Assembly: GCA_024195265.1 (NCBI GenBank)
Contig: JAJLRJ010000006.1
Location: 22,784,023 to 22,848,022 of the forward strand
Source: Dendrophyllia cribrosa
Taxonomy: Eukaryota; Cnidaria; Anthozoa; Scleractinia; Dendrophylliidae
Direction: 5' to 3'
Length of the DNA stretch: 64,000 bases
Positions within the stretch are counted from its first letter, which is position 1. Each line of letters opens with the position of its first letter. The notes below the pieces were generated by a model. It saw nothing but the letters and a program-made list of their open reading frames with translations. It ran no database searches and was not told the origin of the DNA. Made by a program: the position numbers and the translations under genes. Below are positions 24,934 through 43,546 of this stretch, piece by piece.

Positions 24934-24939
24934 CACGTC
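24934..24939. repeat. Polinton target-site duplication, left (CACGTC)
   Basis: The 6 bp directly before the left terminal repeat equal the 6 bp directly after the right one (43,927-43,932). A 6-bp duplication is what Polinton/retroviral-type integrases leave. Confidence 0.95.
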
Positions 24940-25326
24940 AGTAGAAGGGATATCGCGGACTCCAATGCATCCTCGGACCCCGTTAATTTTAACGTAAAAC
25001 ACTTCTGCTTACTTATACACATTAGTAAATTATATGACTCGATTGATCCTTTATGTTAAAACCACCAGAACTCAATAAAAATATTTCAGAAACTCATTTG
25101 TCATTTTCTCCTAAAATTTAACAGCATCTCCAAATGCTAACTTTCTGTCTAAATTTACCAGAGACATATTTTCATTGATTGTAAAAGTGCCATTTCATTT
25201 TCCTGTCAAATCATTACATATTCTTACTATTTGATTTAAGTACATATAAGACATAAAACCTTTGAATTAAGGGGGTCCTTCGGATCCATTGGAGTCCGCG
25301 ATATCCCTTCTACTGTCTCAAAAAAT
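24940..25326. repeat. Polinton left terminal inverted repeat (387 bp)
   Basis: It matches 43,540-43,926 in reverse complement over the full 387 bp, with no difference that I noticed in the parts compared. The first 28 bases (AGTAGAAGGGATATCGCGGA...) recur inverted close to the inner end (25,287-25,314), with weaker similarity for another 20 or so bases. Each terminal repeat is therefore itself bounded by inverted repeats. Confidence 0.95.
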
Positions 25327-25349
25327 CTGGGAGAATATTTCTCCAGCAG

Positions 25350-25565
25350 AAAATCTTTTTCATTTTCACTTCCAGAATCTGGAGCGATTTTTAAAAATTT
25401 TCCCAGAAAAAAAAAGTTTTCAAAAAAAACTGGAGAAAAAGTCAGATTAAAAATGAAAAAGATTTTTCATTTTCACTTCCAGAATCTGGAGCGATTTTTA
25501 AAAATTTTCCCAGAAAAAAAAGTTTTCAAAAAAACTGGAGAAAAAGTCAGATCAAAAATGAAAAA
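25350..25565 (+). repeat. Two tandem 107-bp units inside the left end
   Basis: CATTTTCACTTCCAGAATCT begins at 25,361 and again at 25,468, a period of 107 bp, with near-identical sequence between. The units contain TCTGGAG/CTCCAGA motifs that recur near 37,200 and in the hairpin at 25,573. They separate the left terminal repeat from the first gene and have no counterpart at the right end. Confidence 0.9.
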
Positions 25566-25572
25566 GATTTTC

Positions 25573-25614
25573 TTCTGGAGAAAATATTGGGGGGACCAAA
25601 TATTTTCTCCAGAA
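25573..25614. repeat. Subterminal palindrome, left
   Basis: TTCTGGAGAAAATATT (25,573-25,588) and AATATTTTCTCCAGAA (25,599-25,614) are perfect 16-bp inverted arms around a 10-base G-rich loop (GGGGGGACCA). A palindrome with the complementary loop (TGGTCCCCC) lies next to the right terminal repeat at 43,518-43,546. The pair is thus an inverted subterminal motif of the element, perhaps bound by replication or integration proteins. Confidence 0.8.
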
Positions 25615-25635
25615 AAAGTTTCTCCGGAAAAGAAA

Positions 25636-26205
25636 ATGTCTGATTCCGAAGATGAAGATGAGGAAATAGATGATACTCCTGAAATTATTCATGAAACATA
25701 TACAACAGCATGGTATTCTCATAAAAATCTTAGACTGGAACATTTTAAAGATGTCATCCGTAAAAATCAGGGGAAAAATCAAATTCCACTTAAAGATCTT
25801 GAATTTTATCAAAAAGAAATTCTCTCCCAAATTCCTCTCCACGAAATCACCAGAAAAAAAGTCAGGGAGTTTGTTAAAGCTTTCAAATGGAAAAAAGTTA
25901 ATGGCAATGATCATGAAATTTTCAATCACATAACAAATCACGATGGAAATGATTATGAGCATCTGGAAAAGTTCCTCATTGACGATTTTAAATATTTCTC
26001 ACTGGCATATAATGATCTTCATCCAAACAGAAAAAAGTTTCTTAATTTCAACCAAGTTCTTTTCTCCCTTCTGAAAAAGAATGGTTTCAACCCAAATGAA
26101 GATGATTTCAAGCTTCTTATTCTTCCATCAAGAAGGGCAGAACAAGAAAAAATAATTCAAACCATCTTTAAAAAATTAAATTGGAAAGAAAATGGAAGCC
26201 AGTGA
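25636..26205 (+). CDS. VLTF3-like viral late transcription factor
   Basis: 189 residues from ATG 25,636. An upstream in-frame ATG lies in the tandem repeat and gives a low-complexity extension, so I prefer this start. After an acidic N-terminus (SDSEDEDEE) the helical pattern fits the poxvirus/NCLDV late transcription factor 3 (VLTF3, A2L) family. It has HEITRKKVREFVKAF in the middle, then HPNRKKFLNFNQVLFSLL, which corresponds to the family's R-x-N-F-L-x-Y-x-x-V-L block, and a C-terminus with KKLNW. VLTF3-like proteins switch on late virion genes in large DNA viruses. Here it would be a regulator of the capsid block. It overlaps the next gene by 14 bp. I judged this by pattern only. Confidence 0.6.
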   Translation: MSDSEDEDEEIDDTPEIIHETYTTAWYSHKNLRLEHFKDVIRKNQGKNQIPLKDLEFYQKEILSQIPLHEITRKKVREFVKAFKWKKVNGNDHEIFNHITNHDGNDYEHLEKFLIDDFKYFSLAYNDLHPNRKKFLNFNQVLFSLLKKNGFNPNEDDFKLLILPSRRAEQEKIIQTIFKKLNWKENGSQ

Positions 26206-26464
26206 CCATGAAAATTGTTTCACTTGCTCAGAGGAGGAAGAAAGGAGTGAAAATGAAACCCCAACAACATCTGACGAGGAATTCATTGTCTCTGATTCGG
26301 AGATGGAGGAAGCAGAGCAAAATGAAGAAATGGAAGATACAGTAGAACTCCTCTTTGAATCATTTGTCAACCTCCAAGAGGAACATAAGATTCTCAAAAA
26401 TGATCTCCAAAAACAAAGTTATCTCCTCAGGGAAATCCACCGGGGATTGAAAGAAAAAAAGTGA
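26192..26464 (+). CDS. Small acidic coiled-coil protein
   Basis: 90 residues. The first two thirds are strongly acidic (SEEEERSENE, SDEEF, SDSEMEEAEQNEEMED). The last third is a predicted coiled coil (NLQEEHKILKNDLQKQSYLL) ending in lysines. It starts inside the end of the VLTF3-like gene (14-bp overlap, different frame). No family recognised. The composition suggests an oligomeric transcription or chaperone-type partner of the preceding protein, but that is guesswork. Confidence 0.6.
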   Translation: MEASDHENCFTCSEEEERSENETPTTSDEEFIVSDSEMEEAEQNEEMEDTVELLFESFVNLQEEHKILKNDLQKQSYLLREIHRGLKEKK

Positions 26465-26528
26465 AGGCGCAGCCCGCGTGAAGCGGTGTTTTGAAATGAA
26501 TATGAATGTTTAACATTCATATTCTGTC

Positions 26529-27488
26529 TCAGAGATTTTCCACATCACTCAGTGGAACCCAGGAATTGAATTTATCGGGATATCCTTTCCATTTAACCAA
26601 GGCTTTCTTTTTCTTCTGGTCGCGGCGAATAACCTTTTCAATGCGAAACACGTTTTGGTTTGTCCTTTGGAGTTCCGCCTCGTAAAATGATCCAGTTATT
26701 TTTTCTCCCAACAGATCGACTAACCTATACGTTACAGGATTTGTGTTCAAAACCTCATCGACGACAAATATCTCCTCTGTCCAGTTCGGGGTGAAACCTT
26801 TGTCGAATATCTTTCGTTTGTATTTTGAAATTCGGACTTTGTCGTTGACTTTGAATTTTGCTGGGTTGTGTTTAGCATAAATCATGTCTCCGAAAAGATT
26901 AGCAAAAACCTTTGTTTCATTTTTCTGTTTGCTCGCCTCTGCAGGTGACATCTTAATGCTTGAATGATAAGTGTTATTATATTGATCCACTAACCTGTCC
27001 AGTTTGTCAAAGAAAATTGTATTATTGTTAGCAGAAAACATCCGGAAGAGTTTCTCCTTCATAGTCTTGTTCCAGCGTTCAACCACAGATGACTTTTCTT
27101 CATTCTCTGTGGTATACAATTTTATCCCATTCAAGTCAAGGAGATCCTTCATAGTTCCATTGAAAAATTCACTTCCTTTGTCTGTCCAAAGCATCTTCGG
27201 TTTTCGTGCTTTCGCAAATATGGATCGGAAAGCATCGGCAACTGTTTGTCCTCGCTTGTCTTTCAGGGGGTGAATGAAACCGAACTTTGAGAAAACATCG
27301 ATCACCATCAGGAGGTATCTTATTCCCTTGTTCCACTTTGAAAATTTCCCCATCTCAACCAGATCAGCCGCCCAGATGTTGTCAACGCCATATGAAATGA
27401 CTCTTCTCTTTGGAAATCTTCTCCTTATCGGCTGGTGAAGTTCATTTGCCAGATTTTGAGTCCAGCCTTCACCCAAAATCTTTTCCCG
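26529..27488 (-). CDS. INT: Polinton integrase (rve family) with C-terminal chromodomain, -1 frame
   Basis: Retroviral-type integrase core with the full catalytic triad: Asp in WAADLVEM, Asp in WTDKGSEF 61 residues later and Glu in SSVVERWNK 34 residues after that (D,D34E). Next comes an SH3-like region (NDKVRISKYKRKIF) and a chromodomain tail (ALVKWKGYPDKFNSWVPLSDV). It cuts and joins the element's AG/CT ends to host DNA. No ATG precedes the first catalytic Asp. The frame overlaps the PLA2 frame and is entered at the AAAAAAC heptamer (27,494-27,488), so I expect synthesis by -1 frameshifting as an extension of PLA2. The usual N-terminal HHCC zinc domain is not obvious in this frame. The chromodomain may steer integration to marked chromatin. 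Confidence 0.92.
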   Translation of the reverse strand, partial: REKILGEGWTQNLANELHQPIRRRFPKRRVISYGVDNIWAADLVEMGKFSKWNKGIRYLLMVIDVFSKFGFIHPLKDKRGQTVADAFRSIFAKARKPKMLWTDKGSEFFNGTMKDLLDLNGIKLYTTENEEKSSVVERWNKTMKEKLFRMFSANNNTIFFDKLDRLVDQYNNTYHSSIKMSPAEASKQKNETKVFANLFGDMIYAKHNPAKFKVNDKVRISKYKRKIFDKGFTPNWTEEIFVVDEVLNTNPVTYRLVDLLGEKITGSFYEAELQRTNQNVFRIEKVIRRDQKKKKALVKWKGYPDKFNSWVPLSDVENL

Positions 27489-28096
27489 TTTTTTGGGAGA
27501 CCGAGACCCAGTTTTTGTTTTGCATCAATGGTGTTTCTTGCAAAAGCATGTCCCCACTGTCTTTCTGCCCAGGGAATAGCATCCAATGCGGCAACCATCT
27601 TTCTGTCTGCTTTGTTTTTACATTTGCGTGGATCTGCTTGTTTTGCGCAGATTGAATAATCTACATCATGTTGCATAGAAACTGCATCTGTTTTTCCTGT
27701 TGGTTGCTGATAAATTTCAAGAATCTTTCCAGTATCGTCAAATCTGACTTGTTTTTCCAATGGGTTGAAAGGACCTGTGAAGTTATGTCCGGGAAGAGTG
27801 AATCCTCCTTTTGGTCTGGGAAGTTTTCCAATCAAAGCATGAGCATCGATCCCACGGCCGGATAAGGGATCTAATTTCTTTGAAATGTCACTTGTAAATG
27901 CGTCCAATGCTTGATCAAGATATTTATTCACCGCACCTTTAATTTTTTGTTTGGCAAAATCTGATTTAACCGCTTTGGATAATCCAATACGGCCAAGATT
28001 AGTCAATCCTTTCACGCCGCTTTTTAAGGCAATTTCACCGAGTGAATGACTGTCGGCTATATCGAAAAAGCCCCCACCTTGTGAGGGCAGACTCAG
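27425..28096 (-). CDS. Phospholipase A2 domain protein (capsid-type), -1 frame
   Basis: 224 codons from the frameshift point. The N-terminal part is glycine-rich then amphipathic (SQGGGFFDIADSHSLGEI). The PLA2 core has the calcium loop LPGHNFTGPFNPL, the catalytic His-Asp in MQHDVDYS and a following KCKNKADRKM helix, the arrangement of parvovirus VP1-type PLA2 domains, also known in adintoviruses. Role: opening the endosomal membrane during entry, from within the particle. The frame has no ATG upstream of the core. Back to its preceding in-frame stop it overlaps the zinc-ribbon ORF, one base behind. The GGGAAAC heptamer at 28,102-28,096 joins the two. Its 3' end overlaps the integrase frame by 64 nt. 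Confidence 0.85.
   Translation of the reverse strand: MSLPSQGGGFFDIADSHSLGEIALKSGVKGLTNLGRIGLSKAVKSDFAKQKIKGAVNKYLDQALDAFTSDISKKLDPLSGRGIDAHALIGKLPRPKGGFTLPGHNFTGPFNPLEKQVRFDDTGKILEIYQQPTGKTDAVSMQHDVDYSICAKQADPRKCKNKADRKMVAALDAIPWAERQWGHAFARNTIDAKQKLGLGLPKNGKRFWVKAGLKIWQMNFTSR
27434..27494 (-). promoter_or_regulatory. Candidate -1 ribosomal frameshift site, PLA2 to integrase
   Basis: In the PLA2 frame the codons CCA-AAA-AAC spell A AAA AAC (27,494-27,488), one of the strongest eukaryotic -1 slippery heptamers. Slipping there puts ribosomes exactly in the integrase frame, 61 bases before the PLA2 stop. Downstream, GGTGAAG (27,473-27,467) can pair with CTTCACC (27,440-27,434). An alternative stem pairs GGCTGG (27,467-27,462) with CCAGCC (27,435-27,430). 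The spacer to the first stem is 14 nt, longer than usual, so the stimulator is less certain than the heptamer. Confidence 0.7.
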
Positions 28097-28102
28097 TTTC
28101 CC
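28070..28102 (-). promoter_or_regulatory. Candidate -1 ribosomal frameshift site, zinc ribbon to PLA2
   Basis: The last two sense codons of the zinc-ribbon ORF, GGA and AAC, form G GGA AAC (28,102-28,096) directly before its TGA. After a 7-nt spacer (TGAGTCT) comes an 8-bp GC-rich stem, GCCCTCAC (28,088-28,081) with GTGGGGGC (28,077-28,070), one G-U pair and a 3-nt loop. Heptamer, spacer and stem match the textbook arrangement. The -1 reading then continues open for 224 codons through PLA2. Confidence 0.85.
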
Positions 28103-28251
28103 GAGTTCCCTTGTTTCACGAATCTAGTTTTTTTAATTCCGCATGAAGCGCAATGACAAAACCACATCTTTCTCCCATTTTTTGCAGTCATATATCCGGA
28201 TGGCTCAACGCAACCAGTGACTTTTTTTTCTTTGACGCAATATGATTCCAT
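28093..28251 (-). CDS. Small zinc-ribbon protein (DUF5679-like)
   Basis: 52 residues starting MESYCVKEKKVTGCVEPSGY, with a C-terminal FCHCASCGIKKTRFV. Cysteines in C...C and C-x-C-x2-C spacing and the YMTAKNGRKM middle are reminiscent of the tiny DUF5679 zinc ribbons of DNA viruses. The ATG is in a TTAAAAATG context. The frame stops at TGA immediately after the GGGAAAC heptamer. The same ribosomes could therefore make this protein alone or, after slipping, the zinc-ribbon/PLA2 fusion. Function unknown; nucleic-acid or capsid binding is plausible. Confidence 0.7.
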   Translation of the reverse strand: MESYCVKEKKVTGCVEPSGYMTAKNGRKMWFCHCASCGIKKTRFVKQGNSGN

Positions 28252-28253
28252 TT

Positions 28254-28694
28254 TTAATTGAAATAATCTTTTATGAATTTCTCATTTTGCATTGTGTCAG
28301 TTAAACTGAAAGGTTGGAGAATATCATAGAAATCTTTCCCCTGCGACCATTGATGCAGGAAGAAGAGGCAATAATACCCGCAAAGAACACTGTTGATGTT
28401 TTGATACTGACTGCTGTTCCAAATTACAGGTTTGGAACTTTTAAATTCGAGAGGATAGCCCATGCCGAAACTATCAAAATACCACAAGAACTTTTTATCA
28501 TGCGATGGGACGCAACAAACCCAATGAGTTCCTGCATTTTTAAGCGAATCAAGATTGATGATGCATGGGCTGTGTTTTTTGGGCATAGCTTCATCTCTTG
28601 CAAATATTCCTTTGAAATTGGGAATCCCCAGATATTCAATCCAATTCAACAGATCAATATTTGACAGCGGTTTAATTACAAATTTGGGTCTCAT
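28254..28694 (-). CDS. PRO: Adenain-type cysteine protease (maturation protease)
   Basis: 146 residues from ATG 28,694. Catalytic residues of the adenovirus-protease (C5) family are visible: His in NAGTHWVCC (about 57), Asp in WYFDSFG (74), a Gln in SSQYQN (about 97-99) and Cys in SVLCGYYCLFFL (105). It cleaves virion precursor proteins during particle maturation. The start codon overlaps the stop of the upstream core-protein gene as ATGA, which suggests termination-reinitiation. Longer open sequence upstream in this frame lies inside the core-protein gene and looks like a shadow. Confidence 0.88.
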   Translation of the reverse strand: MRPKFVIKPLSNIDLLNWIEYLGIPNFKGIFARDEAMPKKHSPCIINLDSLKNAGTHWVCCVPSHDKKFLWYFDSFGMGYPLEFKSSKPVIWNSSQYQNINSVLCGYYCLFFLHQWSQGKDFYDILQPFSLTDTMQNEKFIKDYFN

Positions 28695-29566
28695 AGAAGT
28701 GCTCTGAGAATTGGAATGCTGTTGAATGGACTTTTCGATCCTAACAGAAGTCCTTTGCCCTTTTTTGATTTTTTTTTTCCCATTCCAACAGAGTTTCCCC
28801 AACTTCCAATGAATGGAGGAGGTCTTGCCCAAGGAGTTCCCAGTCTGGGGGCACCTTTTCCAGAGGTCGCTCCGCTCCCTTTTGGTCGTCCAACTCTGGG
28901 GGCACCTTTTCCAGAGGTCGCTCCGCTCCCTTTTGGTCGTCCAACTCTGGGGGCACCTTTTCCAAACAGGTTTTTCACCATATCAAGCGCAAGTGGAATT
29001 CCAATGGATGCCAGCATTGTTCCCAACAATCCACCAGATTGTGTTTTGGTTGGTTTCACAACAACCTGTCCTCCTGATTGCAGGGCAGTTAAAATATCCT
29101 GTTTCTGTTTATTTGTCAACAAATGTTTATTGTCAATCAGTTTCTGAATTTTATTTTGGGGGATGAGAAATCCACCCACTTGGCCAGCTCCTTTTCCGCT
29201 GATTGATTTCACAACTTGACTCGCTCCTTCACTCGCCAAACCAGCCAATGCTGACATCCCAAGTGTTTTACCCAGGGTGGGTAACAGGGAACGAGCAAGA
29301 GGAATAATAGCAGAAAACAGACTTCCACCTTGTTTCATCACTTTTCTGATTTGCGTTTTCGATATCTTAATCTCAACTCCATTTCCCAGAGATTTTGCTT
29401 TTGTGATTCTTTTTATTTGATTGGCTGTCAGCATCAGTTCATCACTTCCACTTGTTTGATTGTTTTTCAATCTCAGGGTGATAGGCATGTTTGTTCTGAA
29501 TGCTCTTCCAAGCTTTTGTTTTTGCCCTTCAGACAAATTTACTTTATATGGGTGATATGTTGTCAT
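28691..29566 (-). CDS. Core/membrane-active virion protein with AT-hook-like repeats
   Basis: 291 residues from ATG 29,566 (TTAAAAATG context; an ATG 15 bp upstream is also possible). The N-terminal third is basic (LSEGQKQKLGRAFRT, ITKAKSLGNGVEIKISKTQI). A di-glycine follows, then a hydrophobic amphipathic stretch (QGGSLFSAIIPLARSLLPTL) and a second hydrophobic stretch (GGLLGTMLASIGIPLALDMV). A 17-residue repeat (GAPRVGRPKGSGATSGK type, about 2.5 copies, 51-bp DNA period at 28,843-28,970) gives GRPKGSG units like AT-hooks. A lysine-rich tail (GKKKSKKGKG) ends it. It resembles the pX/core-type proteins of adintoviruses: DNA condensation plus membrane activity. The stop overlaps the protease ATG. 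Confidence 0.65.
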   Translation of the reverse strand: MTTYHPYKVNLSEGQKQKLGRAFRTNMPITLRLKNNQTSGSDELMLTANQIKRITKAKSLGNGVEIKISKTQIRKVMKQGGSLFSAIIPLARSLLPTLGKTLGMSALAGLASEGASQVVKSISGKGAGQVGGFLIPQNKIQKLIDNKHLLTNKQKQDILTALQSGGQVVVKPTKTQSGGLLGTMLASIGIPLALDMVKNLFGKGAPRVGRPKGSGATSGKGAPRVGRPKGSGATSGKGAPRLGTPWARPPPFIGSWGNSVGMGKKKSKKGKGLLLGSKSPFNSIPILRALL

Positions 29567-29589
29567 TTTTAATGATAACATATGTTTTT

Positions 29590-30876
29590 CTAAGCTATAA
29601 CTAATTCATTTCCAACTTTATCAATCTTAGCTGTTTCCTCATAAAGAACGACTGCATGCACATTGAAGGCTGCAGCTGCATTGGCATTTAGCGTATATCG
29701 AAATATCAACTGCTTGGGATCTCGTGTTGGTTTTTCAGCTTGGTAAGACAAGTCGAAATAAATGAGGCTGAAGAGAGATTGAAAGTTAGCCAAATTCAAC
29801 TGAGTACCAGTGTTGAAGTCATTTTTCCTCATTGCATAAGCCATGACATCATTGAAGATTCTGACTTTCGATTCTGTGTCATAGTCAGTTTCAGGATAAA
29901 ACACTCCATTTCCATACTCCAATCTGCAAGTTGACAGGGATGAGTTTGCATTTGCTGCATTCAGCTTGAAAGTGTCAAAGAGATATGGGTTATCTTCTGC
30001 AGGGTCATCATTGGGTGGAGCTGCTCTTTTCAGCCAGACAAAAATATGTCTTACATTATCAATGCTCGCTGAAATCTGGAAGAATCCTGATGATTGTGTA
30101 GGAGGTGATTGATCATATATCTCCCTCAGATATTTCCATTGTGATTCTTTCAGGAATGAACTGATAAATTTGTCATAAAGAGAATCTTTTGGTGTCAATC
30201 TCGGCACCCAAAGCAAAAATCGATTCACCACAACTCTTCCAGGATCTGTACCATTTGCCATATGAATCAATTCATCATCCTGTTGAAGATTAATTTCGAA
30301 TTGCAGCTGCATTGGGACCAACATCCTGTCTTCCAGTTCTTCGAAAAAGGAGAAACGATTCAGGGGGATAATTGCATTAACATCTTTAGCACCTCCAGTT
30401 CCATTGTCTCGAACTGCTTGAGTTTGTATTCTTCTCGCTTCAAATCCTGTGTTATTCGCAGCTGTTGTCGCATTTACATCCAAATACCAGAAACTGTTTT
30501 TTGCGACTGATCTGCTGAAGTCATCTGAGTATTCCAACAGATTTTTAACAAAAGTAACTTTATGTAGATTGTCAGGTTCGTAAACAATCTTCCCTGCAGA
30601 TCTGATTGTCATGTGTTTTATCAGGGAATGTGAGCCATTTATGACTGTTATCCTATCAGCAGCAGCATATCCAGCACCGTCTGCTATTTTCTGGAGTTGA
30701 AATTGCACTTCAAAATAAGCGTTATGCCAGTCATAAAACGCTGATCTGTCGTTGATGGTGAATTTATAACCATTTTTTGCTTGATGTTGCCCATTTGCTG
30801 GGGCTCTGATAACATCATCCAACTGGAATCTTACTAATTCATTTCTTTGGAGATATTCATTCGATCGAAAAGCCAT
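29590..30876 (-). CDS. MCP: Major capsid protein (double jelly-roll type)
   Basis: 428 residues from ATG 30,876. The first strand region (MAFRSNEYLQRNELVRFQLD), the turn FYDWHNAYFEVQFQLQKI, INGSHSLIKHMTIRSAGK and the second barrel region RFSFFEELEDRMLVPMQLQF give the alternating strand pattern and gene position of Polinton/adintovirus hexon-like capsid proteins. It would form the pseudo-hexameric capsomers of an icosahedral shell. It lies directly between the penton and core genes, all on the minus strand. No frame break seen. I infer the family from pattern and context. Confidence 0.8.
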   Translation of the reverse strand: MAFRSNEYLQRNELVRFQLDDVIRAPANGQHQAKNGYKFTINDRSAFYDWHNAYFEVQFQLQKIADGAGYAAADRITVINGSHSLIKHMTIRSAGKIVYEPDNLHKVTFVKNLLEYSDDFSRSVAKNSFWYLDVNATTAANNTGFEARRIQTQAVRDNGTGGAKDVNAIIPLNRFSFFEELEDRMLVPMQLQFEINLQQDDELIHMANGTDPGRVVVNRFLLWVPRLTPKDSLYDKFISSFLKESQWKYLREIYDQSPPTQSSGFFQISASIDNVRHIFVWLKRAAPPNDDPAEDNPYLFDTFKLNAANANSSLSTCRLEYGNGVFYPETDYDTESKVRIFNDVMAYAMRKNDFNTGTQLNLANFQSLFSLIYFDLSYQAEKPTRDPKQLIFRYTLNANAAAAFNVHAVVLYEETAKIDKVGNELVIA

Positions 30877-30890
30877 TTTGATAGATTATT

Positions 30891-32096
30891 TTAAATTCCT
30901 TGGCCACTGATCAGTCTATTCAGGATGTCAGTTGCACTTTCTCTCTGTGGTTGTTTCACAGGGAGTGAAGCAGAGAGTGAAGCAGAGAGTGAAGCAGGGA
31001 GTGAAGCAGGGAGTGATTGTGGTTTTCGTCCTCGTTTCGCAGGACTCGCAGATGGTTTTCCAATCTTCATGTTTCTCAGTTTTTTCATGATCAAATCACC
31101 TGATTTTTCAGCTGCTGCTTTGCCAAGTTTTTCTCCAGCGTGAGAAATTCCTGCATCCAAAGCTTTTTTCGCAAATGGTTTCGCAACTTTCTTGAGAATT
31201 CCTTTCATGGCTGGTCCTGCCATCTTTTTCAGTGGCTTGAAGATGGAATCAAAAATGATGCCTGTTCCTTTATGCTTATAAACAAACTTCCCCAGTTTGG
31301 GGTGATAAACTCGAGAAAATTCATATGCTTTCATTTTATAGTCTTTTTTTTTTAATATCAACGAGAATGCTGTGTCTGCCCCATTCAAGTTGACAATTCT
31401 TCTTTTCCCGTCTGTGATATAGATTCGAATTGAGCTGATCGTGTTTTTATTCACAGGGCAGAATGCTATTTTTATGGGTTCACGCTCAAAACTATATGAT
31501 GACTGCAGAACAGATGTGGAAAAGGAATAGATGATGTCAGTCTCTTCCCCATCCACAAGTGAATTATTTGTCAGATCACAATGAATGTTCAACATATCAG
31601 TATCTTGACTGAGGTTTGGAACTCTGGGACCAAGATTAACTTTCTCTTTCAGAATCTTTTTATCAAACCCTACAAGCTCCCCGAAATTCGATTGGGTGAA
31701 ATCCAGTTGATAATTTTCAGCCAATGTTATTGTCACTCTGAAAGTTTCATTGCTGAAAGCCAGATTGATTGGAAAAACATCTTTTTTTCCAGATTCTTTC
31801 ACCACTGTTGCTCCCCGAATGAAATCATTCATCCCAGAATACCCCCAAACTCCAGCAGGAAACGCAATATCGGAAAATGTTTTTCCACCATCAGAGGAAA
31901 ACCTGATCAGTTGATTTCCATATTGTGGATTGATGTTATACCACGTAAAACTCATATTGATGATTCGTTTCAGCCCAACAACATATTGTTCATTCTGATC
32001 AAGAATAATTGGCTGATTGAATTTTGTTGTGAAATCTGCAGGTTTGTTTTGTCTGTTCTTAACAGCGTAAGATGACAGGACGATTTCTCTTTCCAT
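30891..32096 (-). CDS. mCP: Minor capsid (penton-type) protein with pVI-like C-terminus
   Basis: 401 residues. The N-terminal 250 or so are beta-rich (FTTKFNQPIILDQNEQYVVG, FSDIAFPAGVWGYSGMNDFI) and end with IRIYITDGKRRIVNL, as in the single jelly-roll penton proteins of Polintons. The C-terminal third differs: basic amphipathic helices (KPLKKMAGPAMKGILKKVAK), then a 12-bp DNA repeat giving SLPA/SLSA units (30,960-31,020). This may be a fused membrane-active or DNA-binding tail. Penton proteins occupy the fivefold vertices and usually anchor fibres; a fibre-like gene lies nearby at 33,823. The start overlaps the end of the PPxY gene by 127 bp in another frame. Confidence 0.75.
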   Translation of the reverse strand: MEREIVLSSYAVKNRQNKPADFTTKFNQPIILDQNEQYVVGLKRIINMSFTWYNINPQYGNQLIRFSSDGGKTFSDIAFPAGVWGYSGMNDFIRGATVVKESGKKDVFPINLAFSNETFRVTITLAENYQLDFTQSNFGELVGFDKKILKEKVNLGPRVPNLSQDTDMLNIHCDLTNNSLVDGEETDIIYSFSTSVLQSSYSFEREPIKIAFCPVNKNTISSIRIYITDGKRRIVNLNGADTAFSLILKKKDYKMKAYEFSRVYHPKLGKFVYKHKGTGIIFDSIFKPLKKMAGPAMKGILKKVAKPFAKKALDAGISHAGEKLGKAAAEKSGDLIMKKLRNMKIGKPSASPAKRGRKPQSLPASLPASLSASLSASLPVKQPQRESATDILNRLISGQGI

Positions 32097-33106
32097 TTTA
32101 TGGTTTGAAATAGTTTTTGAACAGCTTTTTTGTTGATAACTGACTCTTTCAGGAGAAGATCAAGAATGCCCACTCCAGTGTTTCTGATTGCCAGATTTGT
32201 GTTTCCAGCAAGAATGGAGCCAATGATTACCTCAAGTTTCTTGAGAAGTTCTTTGGGATTGGAGAACAAGCGGATGGCTCCACCTTTTTTTCTTCTTTTC
32301 AACCCAGAACCCTGAAATGTTTTTGTTTTCTTTGTGTAATGTTTTATGTAATCATTCAGAACTTTGAAGGAAAAGTCTATTTTGCTATGTTCCCTTCTCA
32401 TTGTCTGTTCAGCTATTTCTTTGTTTTTGAATTTTTTCGTCCAAGCAGCTTTATACCCTTTCAGCTGGTTTCTTCTATGTTTTGCATCAGCAAGAATGTT
32501 TTGCTCAAGATAATTTTGTTTCTGTTTTGCTGTGATATCTGGGTCTGCAAGCATCCAATCCACTGTGTTATAAGTATCAATCTCCAATTCAGCCAAATAT
32601 TTATCTGCAACCTCTTTGCGTTCTTTCTTTTCCTTTGTTTTTTTGTCTGCTTCCTTTTTCTTTTCTTGTTCTTCATCCTCAGGCTCCAGAGAGTAATCAG
32701 GAATTTCATCTTCATATGGAGGTGGATCATCTCCAAACTCTTCCCTCAATTCTTCCAAAAAAGTTTGTGGGACTTGTTTTTCAGCTTGCGGCGCAACAAC
32801 CTCATCATCCAACAAACTGCCAACATCCATCTCTTCAAATGGATCAACTTCTGGATAATAATCTATGCCTGGATCGACTTTTGAGGTTGTTGGCTTTCTC
32901 CTCTGAATTGGTAAGGATGGTTGTCTCAAATTCGACGCAACAACCTCATCTAGTTTTGCTGTTATGGGACGGAACATTTTTGCCAGTCCAGTTTGGCTTG
33001 TTTCTTCACCCAACTTTTTCTGGGTGATGACATCGTGAACAAAGTTGATTTTTTTTCCCAAAGCAGATTTGCTTTTAGCCATTTCATTCCATTTCAATAA
33101 ACTCAT
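31970..33106 (-). CDS. PPxY-containing virion protein
   Basis: 378 residues from ATG 33,106 (CTTAAAATG context; an ATG 57 bp upstream adds a hydrophobic leader). It has an acidic middle with DDPPPYEDE, a PPxY late-domain motif of the kind that recruits WW-domain ubiquitin ligases. A long charged helix follows (EQEKKKEADKKTKEKKERKE), and later GLKRRKKGGAIRLFSNPKEL, where a di-glycine precedes an amphipathic segment, as in the core protein and the PLA2 N-terminus. I read it as an adenovirus-pVI-like or tegument-like structural protein. The family is not established. The 3' end overlaps the penton gene. Confidence 0.65.
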   Translation of the reverse strand: MSLLKWNEMAKSKSALGKKINFVHDVITQKKLGEETSQTGLAKMFRPITAKLDEVVASNLRQPSLPIQRRKPTTSKVDPGIDYYPEVDPFEEMDVGSLLDDEVVAPQAEKQVPQTFLEELREEFGDDPPPYEDEIPDYSLEPEDEEQEKKKEADKKTKEKKERKEVADKYLAELEIDTYNTVDWMLADPDITAKQKQNYLEQNILADAKHRRNQLKGYKAAWTKKFKNKEIAEQTMRREHSKIDFSFKVLNDYIKHYTKKTKTFQGSGLKRRKKGGAIRLFSNPKELLKKLEVIIGSILAGNTNLAIRNTGVGILDLLLKESVINKKAVQKLFQTIKWKEKSSCHLTLLRTDKTNLQISQQNSISQLFLIRMNNMLLG

Positions 33107-33188
33107 TTTAAGTCCACAAACATGAATTTGGATGAAGAACATGATGTTGAACAAGATGTTCATCTGAATTTGTCTTCTGGGAAATAAA

Positions 33189-33821
33189 ATGAAGATTCCA
33201 AATTATGATTGCCATGACCCAATCACAAACTTTCGACAGTTGCAGCCTTTTATGCCGGATCGAACTTTCAGAATGTTGATCTGTGGTCCTTCAGGATCTG
33301 GAAAAACAAACGTTCTCCTGGATATGATTTTGAGATTGCTTTTCTACGATAAGATCTTCCTCTATGCGAAAAATCTGGACCAAGCCAAATATCAACATCT
33401 TCTGAAAACATTTCACCCAATCAGCAAAGAAGCTGGATATAACATCGTGGAAGCATCCCAGGATGAAATCATCCTAGTTTCTGAATTATCTGGGGAGAAT
33501 CAAAAACTGGTTGTTTTTGACGATTTTGTTTGCGAGAAAAACCAAAAGCCATTGATTGATTATTTCATCCAGGGCAGACACAAGAATTGTTCTGTGATTT
33601 ATCTTTCACAAAGTTATTTCCAAACACCAAAAGATATCCGCCTGAATTGTTCTCATCTTTGCATTTTTGAATTTCCAAGCAACAAAGAACAGACTGCGAT
33701 CTGCAGGGAAAACAACATCAAGAAAGAAGATTATCTGAAAGCCACGCGTGATCCGTTTTCTTTCCTCTATGTGGATAAACCAAGGAAATTCATGGCTAAA
33801 AACTTTGATGAAAGACTTTAA
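33189..33821 (+). CDS. ATP: DNA-packaging ATPase (FtsK/HerA, A32-like)
   Basis: 210 residues. Walker A GPSGSGKT at 33-40 and Walker B LVVFDDF at 107-113, followed by YLSQSYFQTPKDIRLNCSH carrying the sensor-type Gln. Length and motif spacing match the A32-like packaging ATPases of Polintons and related viruses. It pumps the genome into preformed capsids. It starts at ATAAAATG and is divergent from the PPxY gene across about 80 bp. Its TAA stop is one base before the ATG of the fibre-like gene. Confidence 0.93.
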   Translation: MKIPNYDCHDPITNFRQLQPFMPDRTFRMLICGPSGSGKTNVLLDMILRLLFYDKIFLYAKNLDQAKYQHLLKTFHPISKEAGYNIVEASQDEIILVSELSGENQKLVVFDDFVCEKNQKPLIDYFIQGRHKNCSVIYLSQSYFQTPKDIRLNCSHLCIFEFPSNKEQTAICRENNIKKEDYLKATRDPFSFLYVDKPRKFMAKNFDERL

Positions 33822-33822
33822 A

Positions 33823-35682
33823 ATGAGCTACTCAAATGGATTGCTTTCTGAAACAACAAGCACTTCTCGAGGGGGTCGAGATGGAAGAGATGGATTGCCA
33901 GGAGTTGGTTTTAAACTGACATCCACAGGGGATTATGACATGTCAAACAGAAAACTGGTCAATGTCGCTGAAGGAACAGGAAATGGCGATGCAGTTACAA
34001 AACATCAAGTTGACTCGTTGAAAAGCAGTGTGGAAACCAAACTAATTCAACTGAGAGCAGATTCTTTGCAGGTTGATGGTTCTTCCCATATGACTGGAGA
34101 TCTGGACCTCAGGGGAAAGAAACTGATTCTTCCCGGTGAAATTGACATGGATCGAAAGTTGATCACAAATCTGGATACTGATGAATCAAATGATCTTTCT
34201 GCGGTGAACATGGTAACGCTGAAAAAATATCACCCAAATGCTCCAGCACCAACGCATGAGGTAACAAAAGATATTGACTTGAAACATCGTTATAACGTGA
34301 TCAACGCAAAGCAACAAACTTTTGATTATCTTACCGTGCACTATAACAACTATATCTCCTATAATGACGGAAATAATATCTTTCTCAGTCGGAAAGAAAC
34401 ATTCCCAATGGAAACAAGTTTGGATATGGGAAATCATTTCATTTTTAACGTGAAAGATCCTGTCAACATTGACCAAGCAGTCAATAAAAAATATGTGGAC
34501 ACGGCAGTCTCCGGGCTGGTGGGGCAGATAGCCCACACGGCAGCCAATAAGCTTTCTCTTTCCGGAGGAACAATGACTGGGGAATTGGATATGGGAGGAG
34601 AAAAACTTGTTGGTCTTCCCGATCCAAAAACATCCAATGAAGCAACATCAAAACAATATGTCGATACACAGTTAAATAACAAGACAGTAGCTCTGGCAGA
34701 GGAACTGATCAAAACAGAAGCTGACCTTAAAAAATATGTCAATGAATCGCATATATCTTCAACCTCCCACTTGAAGGATGAATTCCGGTATTTGATGGAG
34801 GATGTGGGTGAATCCAGAGCTGAACATAATATAACAGTGACTGGTTTATCTGATTTTACAAGTTCACCCCATCAGATCAATAAAAAAGCGTATGATTTGA
34901 AAATAACAAAAGATGTTTTTAATGAATACTCTGGGCGACTTGGTTTCCATATGCTGAAGCTTCCAGAAGGGGAATATACGATTTGCATTGAATTCTTCCC
35001 CGCTTCCATGACGGGTGTGAGCGTTGACGTGGTTTCGACCAGCCTGAATATCAATCAACAATCAACAAAAAAGTTTTCCAACTATTCTCGATCAATCATT
35101 CACATGCATAAATGGCAGATTACTCCACCAGAGTTTATTTATCTGGATCTGAAATGGCAAGGAACACCATCATCAGCTGATCAAGGTCCAGAAAATCTGA
35201 TTATTTATGGCGTCAAAGGTTCTCAATCAGATGTGCCAAGTTCTGTTTATGATGCTCCTTTCGTTTTTGACTCGGGGAAGATGGTCATGGAAACTGATTT
35301 GGATATGAATGACCATAAAATTCTCAATTCAAATCTTGGTAATAACTTTATGCTGATTGGAAGATATAGAAAATCATCAGGAGACGGCATAAATGTACTT
35401 TTCGATAATTTTTTCACTGATATAGTCATCCCCATCCGATGCAAATTAATCACAGTGTTTGCTCAAATTATATCAAAAACAGCTTCTTTTCCACAACTAA
35501 CTTTATATCTCCCAGATAAAAGATCGCAAAGTGGAGCTCGTTTTAGCAGTGATAATAGAATTCAAACATTCACGTTTTCAACTGTTGTTTACAAAGCAGG
35601 AGAGTTATTTTCAGCAAGAATAGATGATCGATCAACTAATATCGGGGCTGCCCAAATCACATTTCTTTTTGAAAAAGCCTAA
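33823..35682 (+). CDS. Fibre-like protein with collagen-like N-terminus and tail-fibre repeats
   Basis: 619 residues from ATG 33,823, one base after the ATPase stop. The N-terminus has RGGRDGRDGLPG, a short Gly-X-Y stretch. At least three repeats of a bacteriophage tail-fibre kind follow: TGDYDMSNRKLVNVAE...DAVTKHQVD, SLDMGNHFIFNVKDP...AVNKKYVD, and GGTMTGELDMGGEKLVGLPD...EATSKQYVD. The C-terminal 250 residues look like a globular beta-rich head, with one more LDMNDHKILN unit. A trimeric fibre is expected, by analogy attaching to the penton and binding the host surface. Such a protein is not part of the standard Polinton core. Receptor unknown. Confidence 0.7.
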   Translation: MSYSNGLLSETTSTSRGGRDGRDGLPGVGFKLTSTGDYDMSNRKLVNVAEGTGNGDAVTKHQVDSLKSSVETKLIQLRADSLQVDGSSHMTGDLDLRGKKLILPGEIDMDRKLITNLDTDESNDLSAVNMVTLKKYHPNAPAPTHEVTKDIDLKHRYNVINAKQQTFDYLTVHYNNYISYNDGNNIFLSRKETFPMETSLDMGNHFIFNVKDPVNIDQAVNKKYVDTAVSGLVGQIAHTAANKLSLSGGTMTGELDMGGEKLVGLPDPKTSNEATSKQYVDTQLNNKTVALAEELIKTEADLKKYVNESHISSTSHLKDEFRYLMEDVGESRAEHNITVTGLSDFTSSPHQINKKAYDLKITKDVFNEYSGRLGFHMLKLPEGEYTICIEFFPASMTGVSVDVVSTSLNINQQSTKKFSNYSRSIIHMHKWQITPPEFIYLDLKWQGTPSSADQGPENLIIYGVKGSQSDVPSSVYDAPFVFDSGKMVMETDLDMNDHKILNSNLGNNFMLIGRYRKSSGDGINVLFDNFFTDIVIPIRCKLITVFAQIISKTASFPQLTLYLPDKRSQSGARFSSDNRIQTFTFSTVVYKAGELFSARIDDRSTNIGAAQITFLFEKA

Positions 35683-35685
35683 ATA

Positions 35686-36165
35686 ATGAAAGAAGACATT
35701 TTTAGTTTCAACCACATCTCCCCTGACATAACAGAAGAAAAACTGGAAGAGATCAAGCAATTCTATCGATTTTATCACAAAAGATTTTGGTGTTTGAAAA
35801 GAGCTCACAAACATTTCAAAAAGATGAATTTGTTTGTGAATTTGACATCTTCCGCTCTTGTTGCGATTGGAGCGATTGCTGGAGGAGTGACAATGAATCC
35901 TGTGATTTTGGGAGTGATTTCAGGTGCAGGATTAGTCGTCAAAGCAGGGAATGAAATAAAGAATTATGCAAACAAAATTGAAATGACAAAGTTCGCGTTC
36001 ACAACTTACGAGAAAACATTGACTGATTTGCGTTTTGCTTTGAGGAGTGGAATATTTGATCGAAATGAATTTCTTCCAGCAATGATAGCAGTTGATGGGA
36101 TTGTGATTGATTTGGGATTAGATTTGGAGAAGTTTGAGAGAAAATATGATAAACACTTTGAATAA
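35686..36165 (+). CDS. SLATT-like two-TM protein
   Basis: 159 residues. After a polar N-terminus with FYHKRFWCLKRAHKHFKK come two adjoining hydrophobic segments (LTSSALVAIGAIAGGV and ILGVISGAGLVV). A helical tail follows (ANKIEMTKFAFTTYEKTLTDLR). Two TM helices between an entry helix and a Y-x2-L-type C-terminal helix resemble the SLATT fold, known from bacterial nucleotide-signalling and retron defence effectors. The match is by layout only. It could instead be a virion membrane or holin-like protein. It directly follows the fibre-like gene (3 bp gap). Confidence 0.4.
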   Translation: MKEDIFSFNHISPDITEEKLEEIKQFYRFYHKRFWCLKRAHKHFKKMNLFVNLTSSALVAIGAIAGGVTMNPVILGVISGAGLVVKAGNEIKNYANKIEMTKFAFTTYEKTLTDLRFALRSGIFDRNEFLPAMIAVDGIVIDLGLDLEKFERKYDKHFE

Positions 36166-36191
36166 TTTTTTCATTTCTGGGAAATGAAAAC

Positions 36192-37157
36192 TCAGTTCTT
36201 GATGAATGTAGTTCGTGTCCACAATTCAGGCGCTGAAGTGCATGATTTTTGCGGATGAAAAGTCCATTGCCCTCTTGAGAGATTATCATGAAATTCATCT
36301 ATATCAGGATAAGATTCATAGCCATACTTCTTAAACCATTTTTCAACGTCCCAGTAGTCTTTCGCGCGAAACCATACACCTGAGCGCATATTACAGATCA
36401 CATTTTGATCATTTTTTTCTGCTGGCGCTTCTTCAAAATCCTCAGCTGAAGTGAATCCCTTGAAGTTTTCTTTCACTTGATCCCAAATAGAATCAGAAAA
36501 AACAAAATTACCGTCCAGTGGTTGGAGAGCAGGTTTGGGAGGAAGAGATGCCAGTTTTGGCTCTTCAAGTTTTTCCACTTTGAATTTTTCTCCGTCACTT
36601 CTTCTGGTGAAAGTGTTTCTCCCGCTTTTCAGTGCATTACGGATAGTTCCTGAGTCAATTCCAAGTTCCTTTGTTGCTGCTGAAACACTGGGGAAAATAG
36701 TTGTTGTTGACGATGATGAAATATGGATGGGGATAGACTGAATCTTTTTTGGAGTTGGCGCTTCATCTTCCGTCCATGGTTCTGTCAACTGTCCTTTATC
36801 AAAAGTTCGGGATAGAAATAATTTCTTCCCGTCTTTCTTGACGAAACGTTTTTCAACATAACGATTGAACGCGGCATAGATTGCTTGACGAGTCACACCA
36901 ATCCACTGAGCCATCTCAGCCATTGTTTCAAAAGTTTTCAGGGGTGGTTCAGCAAGAGAATTATGAACAGAAAATCGATCTTCATTTTGATTTGCGACCA
37001 GAACTTTTTTATCTTTGAAAGTGAAAACATTCCTCCCTTCATTTATTGCTTTGTTGAGAGCCCTTGGAGCGATCTTCATAAATCTTGCAAGAGCCGCTTG
37101 CGAAGAAAATCTCTCACTGAGACGTCGTTTTGTCAACGCATCTATCAAAACCCACAT
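36192..37157 (-). CDS. Modular DNA-binding protein (NUMOD/HTH-like repeats)
   Basis: 321 residues from ATG 37,157. Three similar modules can be read: SSQAALARFMKIAPRALNKA, TMAEMAQWIGVTRQAIYAAF and SVSAATKELGIDSGTIRNAL, the last followed by NTFTRRSDGEKFKVE. Each has the look of a helix-turn-helix followed by a basic beta hairpin, as in NUMOD1/IENR-type modules of homing endonucleases. No nuclease domain is visible. Likely a sequence-specific DNA-binding regulator, perhaps of the 181-bp repeats that lie directly upstream. Confidence 0.55.
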   Translation of the reverse strand: MWVLIDALTKRRLSERFSSQAALARFMKIAPRALNKAINEGRNVFTFKDKKVLVANQNEDRFSVHNSLAEPPLKTFETMAEMAQWIGVTRQAIYAAFNRYVEKRFVKKDGKKLFLSRTFDKGQLTEPWTEDEAPTPKKIQSIPIHISSSSTTTIFPSVSAATKELGIDSGTIRNALKSGRNTFTRRSDGEKFKVEKLEEPKLASLPPKPALQPLDGNFVFSDSIWDQVKENFKGFTSAEDFEEAPAEKNDQNVICNMRSGVWFRAKDYWDVEKWFKKYGYESYPDIDEFHDNLSRGQWTFHPQKSCTSAPELWTRTTFIKN

Positions 37158-37948
37158 TTTCTTAGTTGTCAAAAAAGAAAAAGAAAACCACAAAAATGTT
37201 CTCAAAGTTTTCTGGAGAAGATTTCTGGAGAAGTTTTCTGGAGAAGTTTTTTGCTCCAGATTTTTTTTTCTGGGAGAAGATTTTCTGAAAAGATTTCTGC
37301 TAAAATTTTTAGCAGAAACATTATTTTCTGTTGAAAATTTAGCAGAACAACTTGATTTTTGTTTTGATTTTTTCTCTGGAAATAATCTGTTTTTGGATTT
37401 TGCTCCTGAGATTTTTTATTTTTTTTATTTTATTTACCCTGAAGGAACTTCCTTGTGAAATAAAATAAACATTCTGTTAAAATTTTAGCAGAAACATTAT
37501 TGTTTTTCTGCTAAAATTTTTAGCAGAACAACTTGATTTTTGTTTTGATTTTTTCTCTGGAAATAATCTGTTTTTGGATTTTGCTCCTGAGATTTTTTAT
37601 TTTTTTTATTTTATTTACCCTGAAGGAACTTCCTTGTGAAATAAAATAAACATTCTGTTAAAATTTTAGCAGAAACATTATTGTTTTTCTGCTAAAATTT
37701 TTAGCAGAACAACTTGATTTTTGTTTTGATTTTTTCTCTGGAAATAATCTGTTTTTGGATTTTGCTCCTGAGATTTTTTATTTTTTTTATTTTATTTACC
37801 CTGAAGGAACTTCCTTGTGAAATAAAATAAACATTCTGTTAAAATTTTAGCAGAAACAACTTTATTGTTCTGCTAAAATTTTTAGCAGAACAACTTTGTT
37901 TTCTCTCCAGATTTTCAGCAGAACAACTTGATTATATCCTGGATATAA
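37158..37948. repeat. Non-coding repeat array: three 181-bp tandem units with palindromes
   Basis: CTTGATTTTTGTTTTGATTT recurs at 37,351, 37,532 and 37,713, a period of 181 bp with nearly no change. Each unit contains CTGCTAAAATTTTTAGCAG, an almost perfect palindrome, and a second half-palindrome TTCTGTTAAAATTTTAGCAG. Upstream, TTTCTGGAGAAG is repeated at 37,205-37,245. This is the only long non-coding stretch inside the Polinton. Possible roles: origin, enhancer or packaging signal. Confidence 0.9.
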
Positions 37949-38248
37949 TCAATCTAAATAAGTTTGCAAGTGCATCATATCCTTACATGCCTCCCTGTAT
38001 TTTTTGATTGTGATAAGATTCTCACATGCTCTTTTTATTTCCTTCACATAAGATTCTACTGGAGATCTTTGAGTGAGTGAGATGAGAAAATCACGAATTT
38101 TCCTCTCGATTATCTTTGCTTTGAGATGTTTCTTAACAAGTATTTCTTTTCCTTCTTTGCTTTCTTGAAAATTATTCACTGCCCAGTTGAGATCAAATGC
38201 TTGCAGACAGTCAAATTCGGTGCCACTAAATCGGTCCATGAAGTTCAT
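37949..38248 (-). CDS. Small helical protein, unknown
   Basis: 99 residues from ATG 38,248, one base after the TAA of the preceding gene (CTTAAAATG context). It begins MNFMDRFSGTEFDCLQAFDL and continues as charged helices with no TM segment. No family recognised. Longer open sequence upstream lies inside the neighbour's coding region. Confidence 0.6.
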   Translation of the reverse strand: MNFMDRFSGTEFDCLQAFDLNWAVNNFQESKEGKEILVKKHLKAKIIERKIRDFLISLTQRSPVESYVKEIKRACENLITIKKYREACKDMMHLQTYLD

Positions 38249-38249
38249 T

Positions 38250-38903
38250 TTAAGAAGGAATAATATCTTCTTCATTTTGATCCTCATATTCATCAAACGC
38301 TGAGGCACTTTGTACCATTTCCTCCACAAGAACTTCATCCACAATCGCTGTGATAGATTTTACATTCCCGCAGAAGAGATGTTTGATTGAAAAGACAACT
38401 TGTCCAAAAAGTGGCATAGAGATGAGTTCTTTCTGTCTCAGAATGGGCTTCTTTTTCCCGTTTGTCAGCTCCCAAAAACGACAGGAGAAATCTGTTTTGG
38501 GGATCTTAGAGGGATAAATCTTTGCAAAAATCTTTTCCTGCTCAGATTTATCTGTTTTCAAGAGAGAAAAATCTTCCGCGTGAAACTTAGCAAAAGATGG
38601 AGAAAGTTTTTTCACTTCTGGTTGTTTTTTCATTGCAGCTGAGCGAAGATGAGCTTCCAGTTTGTGGAAAAAGGGGATATTTTCTTCAGGGAGATTGATC
38701 CCCAGTGAAAAAGAATCTCCTTCATGAGCAAAGATTTTAAACTTTGTTTTGAGTTTCAGTTGAAGTTTTTTGCCATCGAGAGAACAGGGGAGCAGACAAT
38801 ATGAGATCTTTCCAGAGGTTCGTTTTTGTGGCTCTTCAAGAATGATCTTGGAAACGGAAACTTTTTCGGGATTCATTTTCTTGGTGGAGATAAAAAAAAT
38901 CAT
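38250..38903 (-). CDS. ssDNA-binding-like protein (DUF5871-type pattern)
   Basis: 217 residues. The ATG overlaps the preceding stop as ATGA (38,903-38,900). The N-terminal half has KISYCLLPCSLDGKKLQLKL and FSLGINLPEENIPFFHKLEA. The C-terminal half has FGQVVFSIKHLFCGNVKSIT followed by an acidic tail (DEYEDQNEEDII). This order, a dual beta-rich block with an acidic C-terminus, is like the OB-fold single-strand binding proteins of large DNA viruses (DUF5871 kind). It would fit beside a protein-primed polymerase, whose replication exposes single strands. Tentative. Confidence 0.45.
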   Translation of the reverse strand: MIFFISTKKMNPEKVSVSKIILEEPQKRTSGKISYCLLPCSLDGKKLQLKLKTKFKIFAHEGDSFSLGINLPEENIPFFHKLEAHLRSAAMKKQPEVKKLSPSFAKFHAEDFSLLKTDKSEQEKIFAKIYPSKIPKTDFSCRFWELTNGKKKPILRQKELISMPLFGQVVFSIKHLFCGNVKSITAIVDEVLVEEMVQSASAFDEYEDQNEEDIIPS

Positions 38904-39175
38904 TTTATTTCCAAATCCACTTCTCCAAACTGTCTGTCTTTTTCAGTTTTGACTGGAAGAAAACCATTTACCTTGTCAACGGCTTTCTGAATCTTGGTTT
39001 CAATTTCAGCCCAATGCATCCATGCGATTTCTTCCTCCGTCAACCCACTTGTTGCTTTGTAAAATTTGGGATCAATCAAAGTTGCATGATTTCTTATTTC
39101 AGCCAGTGCAATTTTGATTTCCTCCAGAGAAAAGAAATCTTGCCCCTCGATTGTGAAAAGTTTTTCTTTGTTCAT
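38900..39175 (-). CDS. Small protein with HTH-like start
   Basis: 91 residues starting MNKEKLFTIEGQDFFSLEEI. The segment IEGQDFFSLEEIK resembles IDGEDFFTAEEIQ in the neighbouring gene, so the two share a module. The rest is helical with a C-terminal acidic end. Function unknown. Probably part of the same set of DNA-binding regulators. Confidence 0.55.
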   Translation of the reverse strand: MNKEKLFTIEGQDFFSLEEIKIALAEIRNHATLIDPKFYKATSGLTEEEIAWMHWAEIETKIQKAVDKVNGFLPVKTEKDRQFGEVDLEIK

Positions 39176-39198
39176 TTTTTATCCATTGGATAAAAAAT

Positions 39199-39690: not shown

Positions 39691-39726
39691 TTTAAATGGA
39701 GAAAAAATCTTTTAGCCCCAAATAAA

Positions 39727-43502: not shown

Positions 43503-43517
43503 TTTTTCTCCCAGTTG

Positions 43518-43546
43518 AAAAAATATTTGGTCCCCCAATATTTTTT
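43518..43546. repeat. Subterminal palindrome, right
   Basis: AAAAAATATT (43,518-43,527) and AATATTTTTT (43,537-43,546) flank TGGTCCCCC, the complement of the left loop. It abuts the inner edge of the right terminal repeat, whereas the left palindrome lies about 250 bp inside, beyond the 107-bp tandem units. Confidence 0.75.

Follow-up and report, generated by a model that had tools for sequence, protein, structure and literature searches.

Retroviruses and bacterial insertion sequences are characterised by programmed frameshifting as the way to an integrase, and bacterial IS3-type elements make their transposase by a -1 shift. In betaretroviruses and deltaretroviruses (MMTV, MPMV, SRV, HTLV), Gag-Pro-Pol occupies three overlapping frames, and ribosomes shift by -1 twice in a row to reach an integrase-bearing end product. 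The gag-pro heptamers are GGGAAAC in MPMV, SRV, and JSRV and AAAAAAC in MMTV, with 7-nt spacers (PMC3835772, PMC5009743). On mammalian ribosomes, few known sequences are as slippery as such heptamers (PMC5009743). GGGAAAC is also used by PEG10 (PMC2800197).

Closer to the element described here, slippery sequences have been predicted with KnotInFrame near the 3' end of some Penton ORFs of adintoviruses, a Polinton-related group, and the authors of that 2024 preprint (PMC11071296) call the frameshift hypothetical. An earlier sequence-only reading of our locus knew of no description of such shifts in Polintons or adintoviruses; the Penton prediction qualifies that statement. For the zinc ribbon (ZnR), PLA2, and integrase (INT) of Polintons, no frameshift was found described in open full text and few subscription papers (passages of PMC11071296, PMC8363768, PMC8097293, PMC10120064, PMC11071308, PMC5009743, PMC3835772, and PMC2800197).

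The window, by which we mean the whole 64,000-nt stretch of Dendrophyllia cribrosa DNA that was analysed, contains an element with two candidate junctions of this kind in succession. Its main features are as follows.

24940..43926, no strand assigned: complete Polinton/Maverick of 18,987 bp, with terminal repeats, target duplication, integrase, and polymerase
29590..30885 and 30891..32159: capsid candidates, without a Pfam match
29581..28691, minus strand: core-protein-like ORF, presumptively labeled from sequence features
28254..28694, minus strand: protease-like ORF upstream of ZnR, a putative processing enzyme, with a weak PF00770 match
28093..28251, minus strand: zinc-ribbon ORF (ZnR, DUF5679) of 52 codons with an ATG start, upstream partner of the proposed first shift
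27425..28123, minus strand: PLA2 ORF (stop to stop) of 232 codons, in -1 relative to ZnR
26529..27524, minus strand: integrase ORF (stop to stop) with rve core and chromodomain, in -1 relative to PLA2

The assignment to Polintons/Mavericks is based on terminal inverted repeats (a 397-nt match, 99% complementary, at 24935-25331 and 43535-43931, which runs 5 nt into the target duplication), a 6-bp target duplication CACGTC on both sides (24934-24939 and 43927-43932), and Pfam matches to B-family polymerase (PF03175, 1.8e-25) and rve integrase (PF00665, 2.2e-11). In the DNA polymerase B ORF (40056..43502), which runs uninterrupted over 1148 codons, there is also an Endonuclease VII domain match. 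On the minus strand, reading leftward, the order is capsid-like ORFs, core-protein-like, protease-like, ZnR, PLA2, and integrase. Neither the core-protein-like ORF nor the capsid candidates had a Pfam match to capsid or core families, and the capsid, core, and ATPase labels in the window are presumptive ones based on sequence features; the PF00770 match of the protease-like ORF scored 19.0 bits, below the curated cut-off of 21.3. The TGA of the core-protein-like ORF lies inside the ATG of the protease-like ORF (an ATGA overlap at 28691..28694, minus strand), and the protease-like stop is 2 nt ahead of the ZnR ATG, so that the core/protease/ZnR block looks polycistronic.

What the sequence itself shows is the frames, the heptamers with their spacers and stems, and how these recur in the genomic copies. 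The signals at the two junctions are these.

28096..28102, minus strand: slippery heptamer 1, G_GGA_AAC, in the ZnR frame directly ahead of TGA (28095..28093)
28095..28089, minus strand: spacer 1, TGAGTCT, 7 nt
28088..28070, minus strand: stem-loop 1, 8 bp with a 3-nt loop, GCCCTCAC-AAG-GTGGGGGC
27488..27494, minus strand: slippery heptamer 2, A_AAA_AAC, in the PLA2 frame
27487..27482, minus strand: spacer 2, 6 nt
27481..27471 / 27461..27451, minus strand: predicted H-type pseudoknot 2, S1, 11 bp
27467..27462 / 27435..27430, minus strand: predicted H-type pseudoknot 2, S2, 6 bp
27430..27487, minus strand: extent of spacer 2 plus knot; predicted loops L1 of 3 nt and L2 of 15 nt

The sequence-only reading had proposed a -1 frameshift at ZnR/PLA2, and what it saw there is present on the minus strand: a 52-codon ZnR ORF ending GGA AAC TGA with GGGAAAC before the stop, the 7-nt spacer and 8-bp stem with a 3-nt loop (28095..28070), and a -1 frame open through PLA2 (about 224 codons after the shift). 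The PLA2 frame has no ATG until codon 150, which already lies within the domain (PF08398 at residues 107-181; DUF5679 is matched in ZnR). That single site is half of a larger arrangement, with a second, stronger site where PLA2 and the integrase ORF, again in -1, overlap by 100 nt. The first ATG of the integrase ORF is at 27353, after what we presume, from the rve motif, to be the first catalytic Asp. Both sites thus have an X_XXY_YYZ heptamer (GGGAAAC, AAAAAAC) in the upstream frame and within the overlap, with a structure predicted about 5-9 nt downstream (spacer 7 and an 8-bp stem; spacer 6 and an 11/6-bp pseudoknot). We consider it about 90% probable that two programmed -1 frameshifts yield three products, ZnR, ZnR-PLA2, and ZnR-PLA2-INT.

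Sites 1 and 2 carry the same heptamers as retroviral gag-pro sites. Stems S1 of 11-12 bp and S2 of 6 bp, as predicted at site 2, also make up the IBV frameshift pseudoknot. The H-type pseudoknots of BIV and JDV have these dimensions too, in viruses with a different genome type and gene order (PMC3835772). The Polinton differs from retroviruses in being a DNA element that encodes a B-family polymerase and lacks a reverse transcriptase in this reading frame; no reverse transcriptase was found in the third frame, where the integrase ORF gave only rve and chromodomain matches in Pfam. A zinc ribbon of 52 residues comes first in place of a capsid protein, PLA2 stands in the middle in place of a protease, and the protease-like gene is a separate ORF upstream. 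The integrase ORF works like, but is not, retroviral Pol. PEG10 has the heptamer of site 1 but a single shift in a retroelement-derived gene, IS3-type transposases likewise use one -1 shift but in a bacterial element, and the adintovirus Penton prediction is also a -1 shift but concerns another gene and only an alternate C terminus. What we describe is a known mechanism in a new place and with a new architecture.

Judged by folding energy over the whole segment, site 1 is unexceptional (z of -1.16 and -1.45 versus shuffles), and we therefore turned to tests based on position and on paired changes. On the minus strand, 0.75% of positions carry a canonical heptamer. When 4000 random minus-strand positions of the element were examined, 2.5% had a stem arm of 8 bp or more beginning 5-9 nt further on; counting just the positions with any stem, 0.09% had such an arm with at least six G-C pairs. 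The best 40-nt fold of site 1 was equalled at 0.7% of 1500 random positions. The window has 967 canonical heptamers, counting both strands. Of these, site 1 ranked 8th and site 2 26th by plain 40-nt fold, and the two sites filled ranks 1 to 3 by pseudoknot stem energy, ranks 1 and 2 being overlapping heptamers on one knot (site 2) and site 1 ranking 3rd. This energy, a simple stacking sum of our own, was equalled at 0.33% (site 1) and 0.07% (site 2) of random positions (n = 1500). In the main family the candidate pseudoknot at site 1, with stems of 6 and 5 bp and a 39-nt loop 2, is weak, and the stimulator there may be a stem-loop or perhaps a pseudoknot. A search of Rfam gave two matches with E up to 1, both unrelated and far below gathering scores.

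The host genome (627 Mb, 22 contigs) contains at least 150 PLA2 matches. From 1079 candidates we scored 150, of which 120 were counted, two (L121 and L122) were treated separately, and 28 were left out; frames were read in each of the 120 copies by separate matching of ZnR, PLA2, and INT pieces. Junction 1 was -1 in 117/120 copies (same frame in 2, +1 in 1), junction 2 was -1 in 116/120 (same frame in 4), and both were -1 in 113/120. All three frames were open in 91 copies, of which 86 were -1/-1, four were -1/same, and one was same/-1; five of the seven departing copies were among them. Because the 120 copies are related, forming only 2 clusters of PLA2 sequences at 90%, these counts are not independent. 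At 97% there were 66 clusters and at 95% there were 21, and -1/-1 was the majority state in 62/66, 21/21, and 2/2 clusters at 97%, 95%, and 90%, respectively, with an in-frame majority in 4/66 at 97%. L121 (PLA2 73%, ZnR 64%) and L122 (PLA2 78%, ZnR 82%) were also -1/-1 with both heptamers kept. The proposed shift at ZnR/PLA2 thus gains strong comparative support from the 117 copies, and the earlier reading was incomplete in that a second -1 site adds the integrase. In a few copies (L070, L096, and L103), one open frame of 531-542 codons spans PLA2 and integrase.

The signals themselves are retained among these copies. Of the 117 copies with a -1 junction 1, 113 have an in-frame GGGAAAC in the overlap: it immediately precedes the ZnR stop in 112 (TAA in 95, TGA in 17) and a later stop in L063. 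The four copies without an in-frame canonical heptamer in the overlap comprise two in which it is altered (L041 and L048) and two with an earlier ZnR stop, in which GGGAAAC is still close by (L016 and L034). At junction 2, a canonical in-frame heptamer is present in 116/116 of the -1 copies (AAAAAAC in 91, TTTAAAC in 23, AAAAAAT in 1, and AAAAAAA in 1), and in the T_TTA_AAC subfamily residues differ in both frames while the slippery pattern is retained. The minor-letter fraction at site 1, over 65 distinct sequences picked for having the heptamer plus L041 and L048, was 0.004 in the heptamer and 0.007 in the downstream stem region versus 0.39-0.43 in the upstream flank, which is unaligned, so that its variability is partly length change. 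Stop codon, linker, and spacer letters vary at site 1, and heptamer and stem persist. In L112, L114, and L116, extra bases follow right after stem 1, with heptamer, spacer length, and stem intact.

Pairing was retained as well: stem 1 was paired in 61/64 cells among 8 distinct sequences (L109 has both of its double changes, one at pair 5 and one at pair 7), S1 of pseudoknot 2 in 240/242 cells over 22 sequences, and S2 in 126/132 cells, with one double change, at pair 3, in each of S1 and S2. A site-2 pseudoknot was found in 72/72 distinct downstream sequences versus 7.9% of 1200 random offsets, the counted structures having been derived from the same sequences. The geometry of the window was kept in 63/72, and S2 was built from other letters in 5/72, three of which had an S1 of only 5 bp. 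L121 has pseudoknots at both sites, with a site-2 spacer of 10 and a site-1 knot stronger than that of the main family; L122 has stops inside ZnR and INT and at site 2 only a hairpin, with no perfect knot under the strict rule. The conserved heptamers and paired stems look like selection on a signal.

Comparison with other genomes was made at the protein level. It used the best 120 from 1467 PLA2 relatives, the top 120 from 1954 matches in the other protein search, and all 20 free ZnR ORFs. The searches covered proteins not far above the query in length, and their counts of full ZnR-PLA2-INT fusions are therefore too low. All 14 N-terminally extended PLA2 relatives among the matches listed can read a ZnR signature in the other frame, versus 120/7000 in a shuffle control, and G-K is invariant in 16/16 sequences (these 14, P0056, and the window) with variable residues on either side. 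The 20 free ZnR ORFs end in -GN (11), -EN (1), -KN (2), with linkers of differing length, or otherwise (6). A -GN end in one frame together with G-K-L in the next forces GGGAAAC, the two being seen in different records. At the second junction, 43/44 PLA2 tails ending in KKN, which are mutually related, can read an INT start in -1, versus 202/8800 when shuffled. Conservation of the signal under divergence is thus observed among the copies and, for other species, suggested by these proteins.

Other relatives need no shift. By motif, at least 83 proteins among the matches listed have ZnR and PLA2 in frame, and none of the 83 has GK[LR]..P or P[SP]Q.[GE] in the first 130 residues. P0144 is in frame yet has GKLIEPSQ, and was missed by the selection of 83 because its start is cut; P0141, whose ZnR is also in frame, has a motif that resembles it. 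A single frame takes in ZnR, PLA2, and integrase in P0181, P0207, and others, and the single-frame fusions P0005, P0149, P0181, and P0207 have the same domain order as the window but need no shift at junction 1. Such relatives suggest that the fusion is a real, functional protein and that a lineage can change from the fused to the shifted form or back. In a sister lineage (among P0142-P0249, with in-frame ZnR), the PLA2/integrase junction looks like an A-rich run. Changes in the length of this run are suggested by the PLA2 tails, whose final frames differ (KTPKI, KRPKF, or continuing into integrase). A PLA2 tree of 102 rows gave 4 changes between the "PSQ" and in-frame states among 75 labelled rows; with few columns and a long branch to the window, it was set aside as a record of history. 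Scans of IMG/VR and GTDB contigs gave no confirmed relatives.

Single-frame relatives raise the question of whether the frame changes are simple indels in decaying copies next to coincidental heptamers. The sequence-only reading had held that close relatives with both domains in one uninterrupted frame and without the heptamer would make the junction a simple indel; the 83 proteins show that single-frame relatives exist, but they do not turn the 117 copies into indels. In-frame fusions occur in other lineages and in 6/120 copies here, and most vertebrate Mavericks are degraded (PMC8097293). However, the present element is complete with 99% terminal repeats, the -1/-1 state is found in the open copies and clusters counted above, and L121, L122, and the proteins of other genomes are again -1, so that we rejected simple indels as very unlikely from the copy survey. 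An equally slight chance attaches to introns joining the frames in mRNA or to transcriptional slippage supplying part of the product. Polymerase slippage is conceivable in the sister lineage, given its apparently A-rich junction 2 and PLA2 tails in more than one frame, but the run in the window has only six A and the TTTAAAC copies have no long run, and splicing does not predict a conserved heptamer-spacer-stem.

Somewhat less improbable, although still quite unlikely, is that PLA2 and INT are separate overlapping genes with their own initiation, through internal or near-cognate starts, termination-reinitiation, or separate transcripts. The ATGA stop-start overlap between the core-protein-like and protease-like ORFs (28694..28691) indicates that coupled initiation may be used in this element, some relatives have a predicted PLA2 starting MVPSQ or MEPSQ, suggesting an ATG at the stop, and an ATG precedes the PLA2 domain in 21/91 open copies and the first catalytic Asp of INT in 42/91. 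Lack of an own start in the downstream ORF is therefore not universal among open copies, but the window has no ATG ahead of the domain in either frame, and the same is true of 70/91 (PLA2) and 49/91 (INT) open copies. Own initiation also leaves unexplained the canonical heptamers, near-fixed spacers, and stems at both overlaps as well as the TTTAAAC form, and relatives in which nature has already joined the domains in one frame point to a functional fusion.

Under two successive frameshifts, ribosomes starting at the ZnR ATG would mostly stop after 52 codons. A minority would slip back one base at G_GGA_AAC, aided by the stem-loop 7 nt ahead, to give ZnR-PLA2, and a minority of those would slip again at A_AAA_AAC (T_TTA_AAC in the subfamily), aided by the 11+6-bp pseudoknot, to give ZnR-PLA2-INT. 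We infer the slippage and its efficiency from this arrangement, and also that the fusions would be packaged; the fixed product ratio and the low-copy virion enzyme of the sequence-only reading are likewise suppositions. The putative adenain-like protease of the element may then cut the fusions at a conserved Q-x-G-G in the linker. The adenovirus-protease consensus is [MILNQ]xGG or [MILNQ]xGxG; it occurs in the linker in 89/90 relatives with the PSQ motif (including the window and P0144) and in 54/80 in-frame ones, compared with 0.06 per 25 residues elsewhere in the same proteins. The linker consensus and the adjoining protease-like ORF suggest that the fusion is cut, and we advance packaging and processing of the fusions as a hypothesis. 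The core-protein-like ORF (29581..28691) has repeated QxGG at residues 134, 168, and 181, like the putative ZnR-PLA2 linker site.

More tentatively, and at slightly under even odds, we speculate that Polintons have an economy like that of Gag, Gag-Pro, and Gag-Pro-Pol that evolved apart from retroviruses. The zinc ribbon would be abundant, two slips would attach first PLA2, for membrane entry, and then integrase in falling amounts, the zinc ribbon would carry the fusions into the capsid, and the adenovirus-like protease would release them at Q-x-G-G or M-x-G-x-G, so that the virion arrives with its entry enzyme and integrase. If both shifts take place, the pair of -1 signals at ZnR, PLA2, and integrase would mean that the Gag-Pro-Pol layout arose independently in a DNA virus-transposon of eukaryotes, and whether Polintons form integrase-carrying virions becomes testable. 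For annotation, a plain ORF search would then report three "genes" for a single product, and an ATG requirement shortens the integrase to a start at 27353.

Elsewhere in the element, a 42-nt near-palindrome is present in three copies about 180 nt apart (37479..37906). The minus-strand ORF at 36192..37415 has a NUMOD1 match and weaker helix-turn-helix-like matches, and is possibly a homing-endonuclease-derived regulator.
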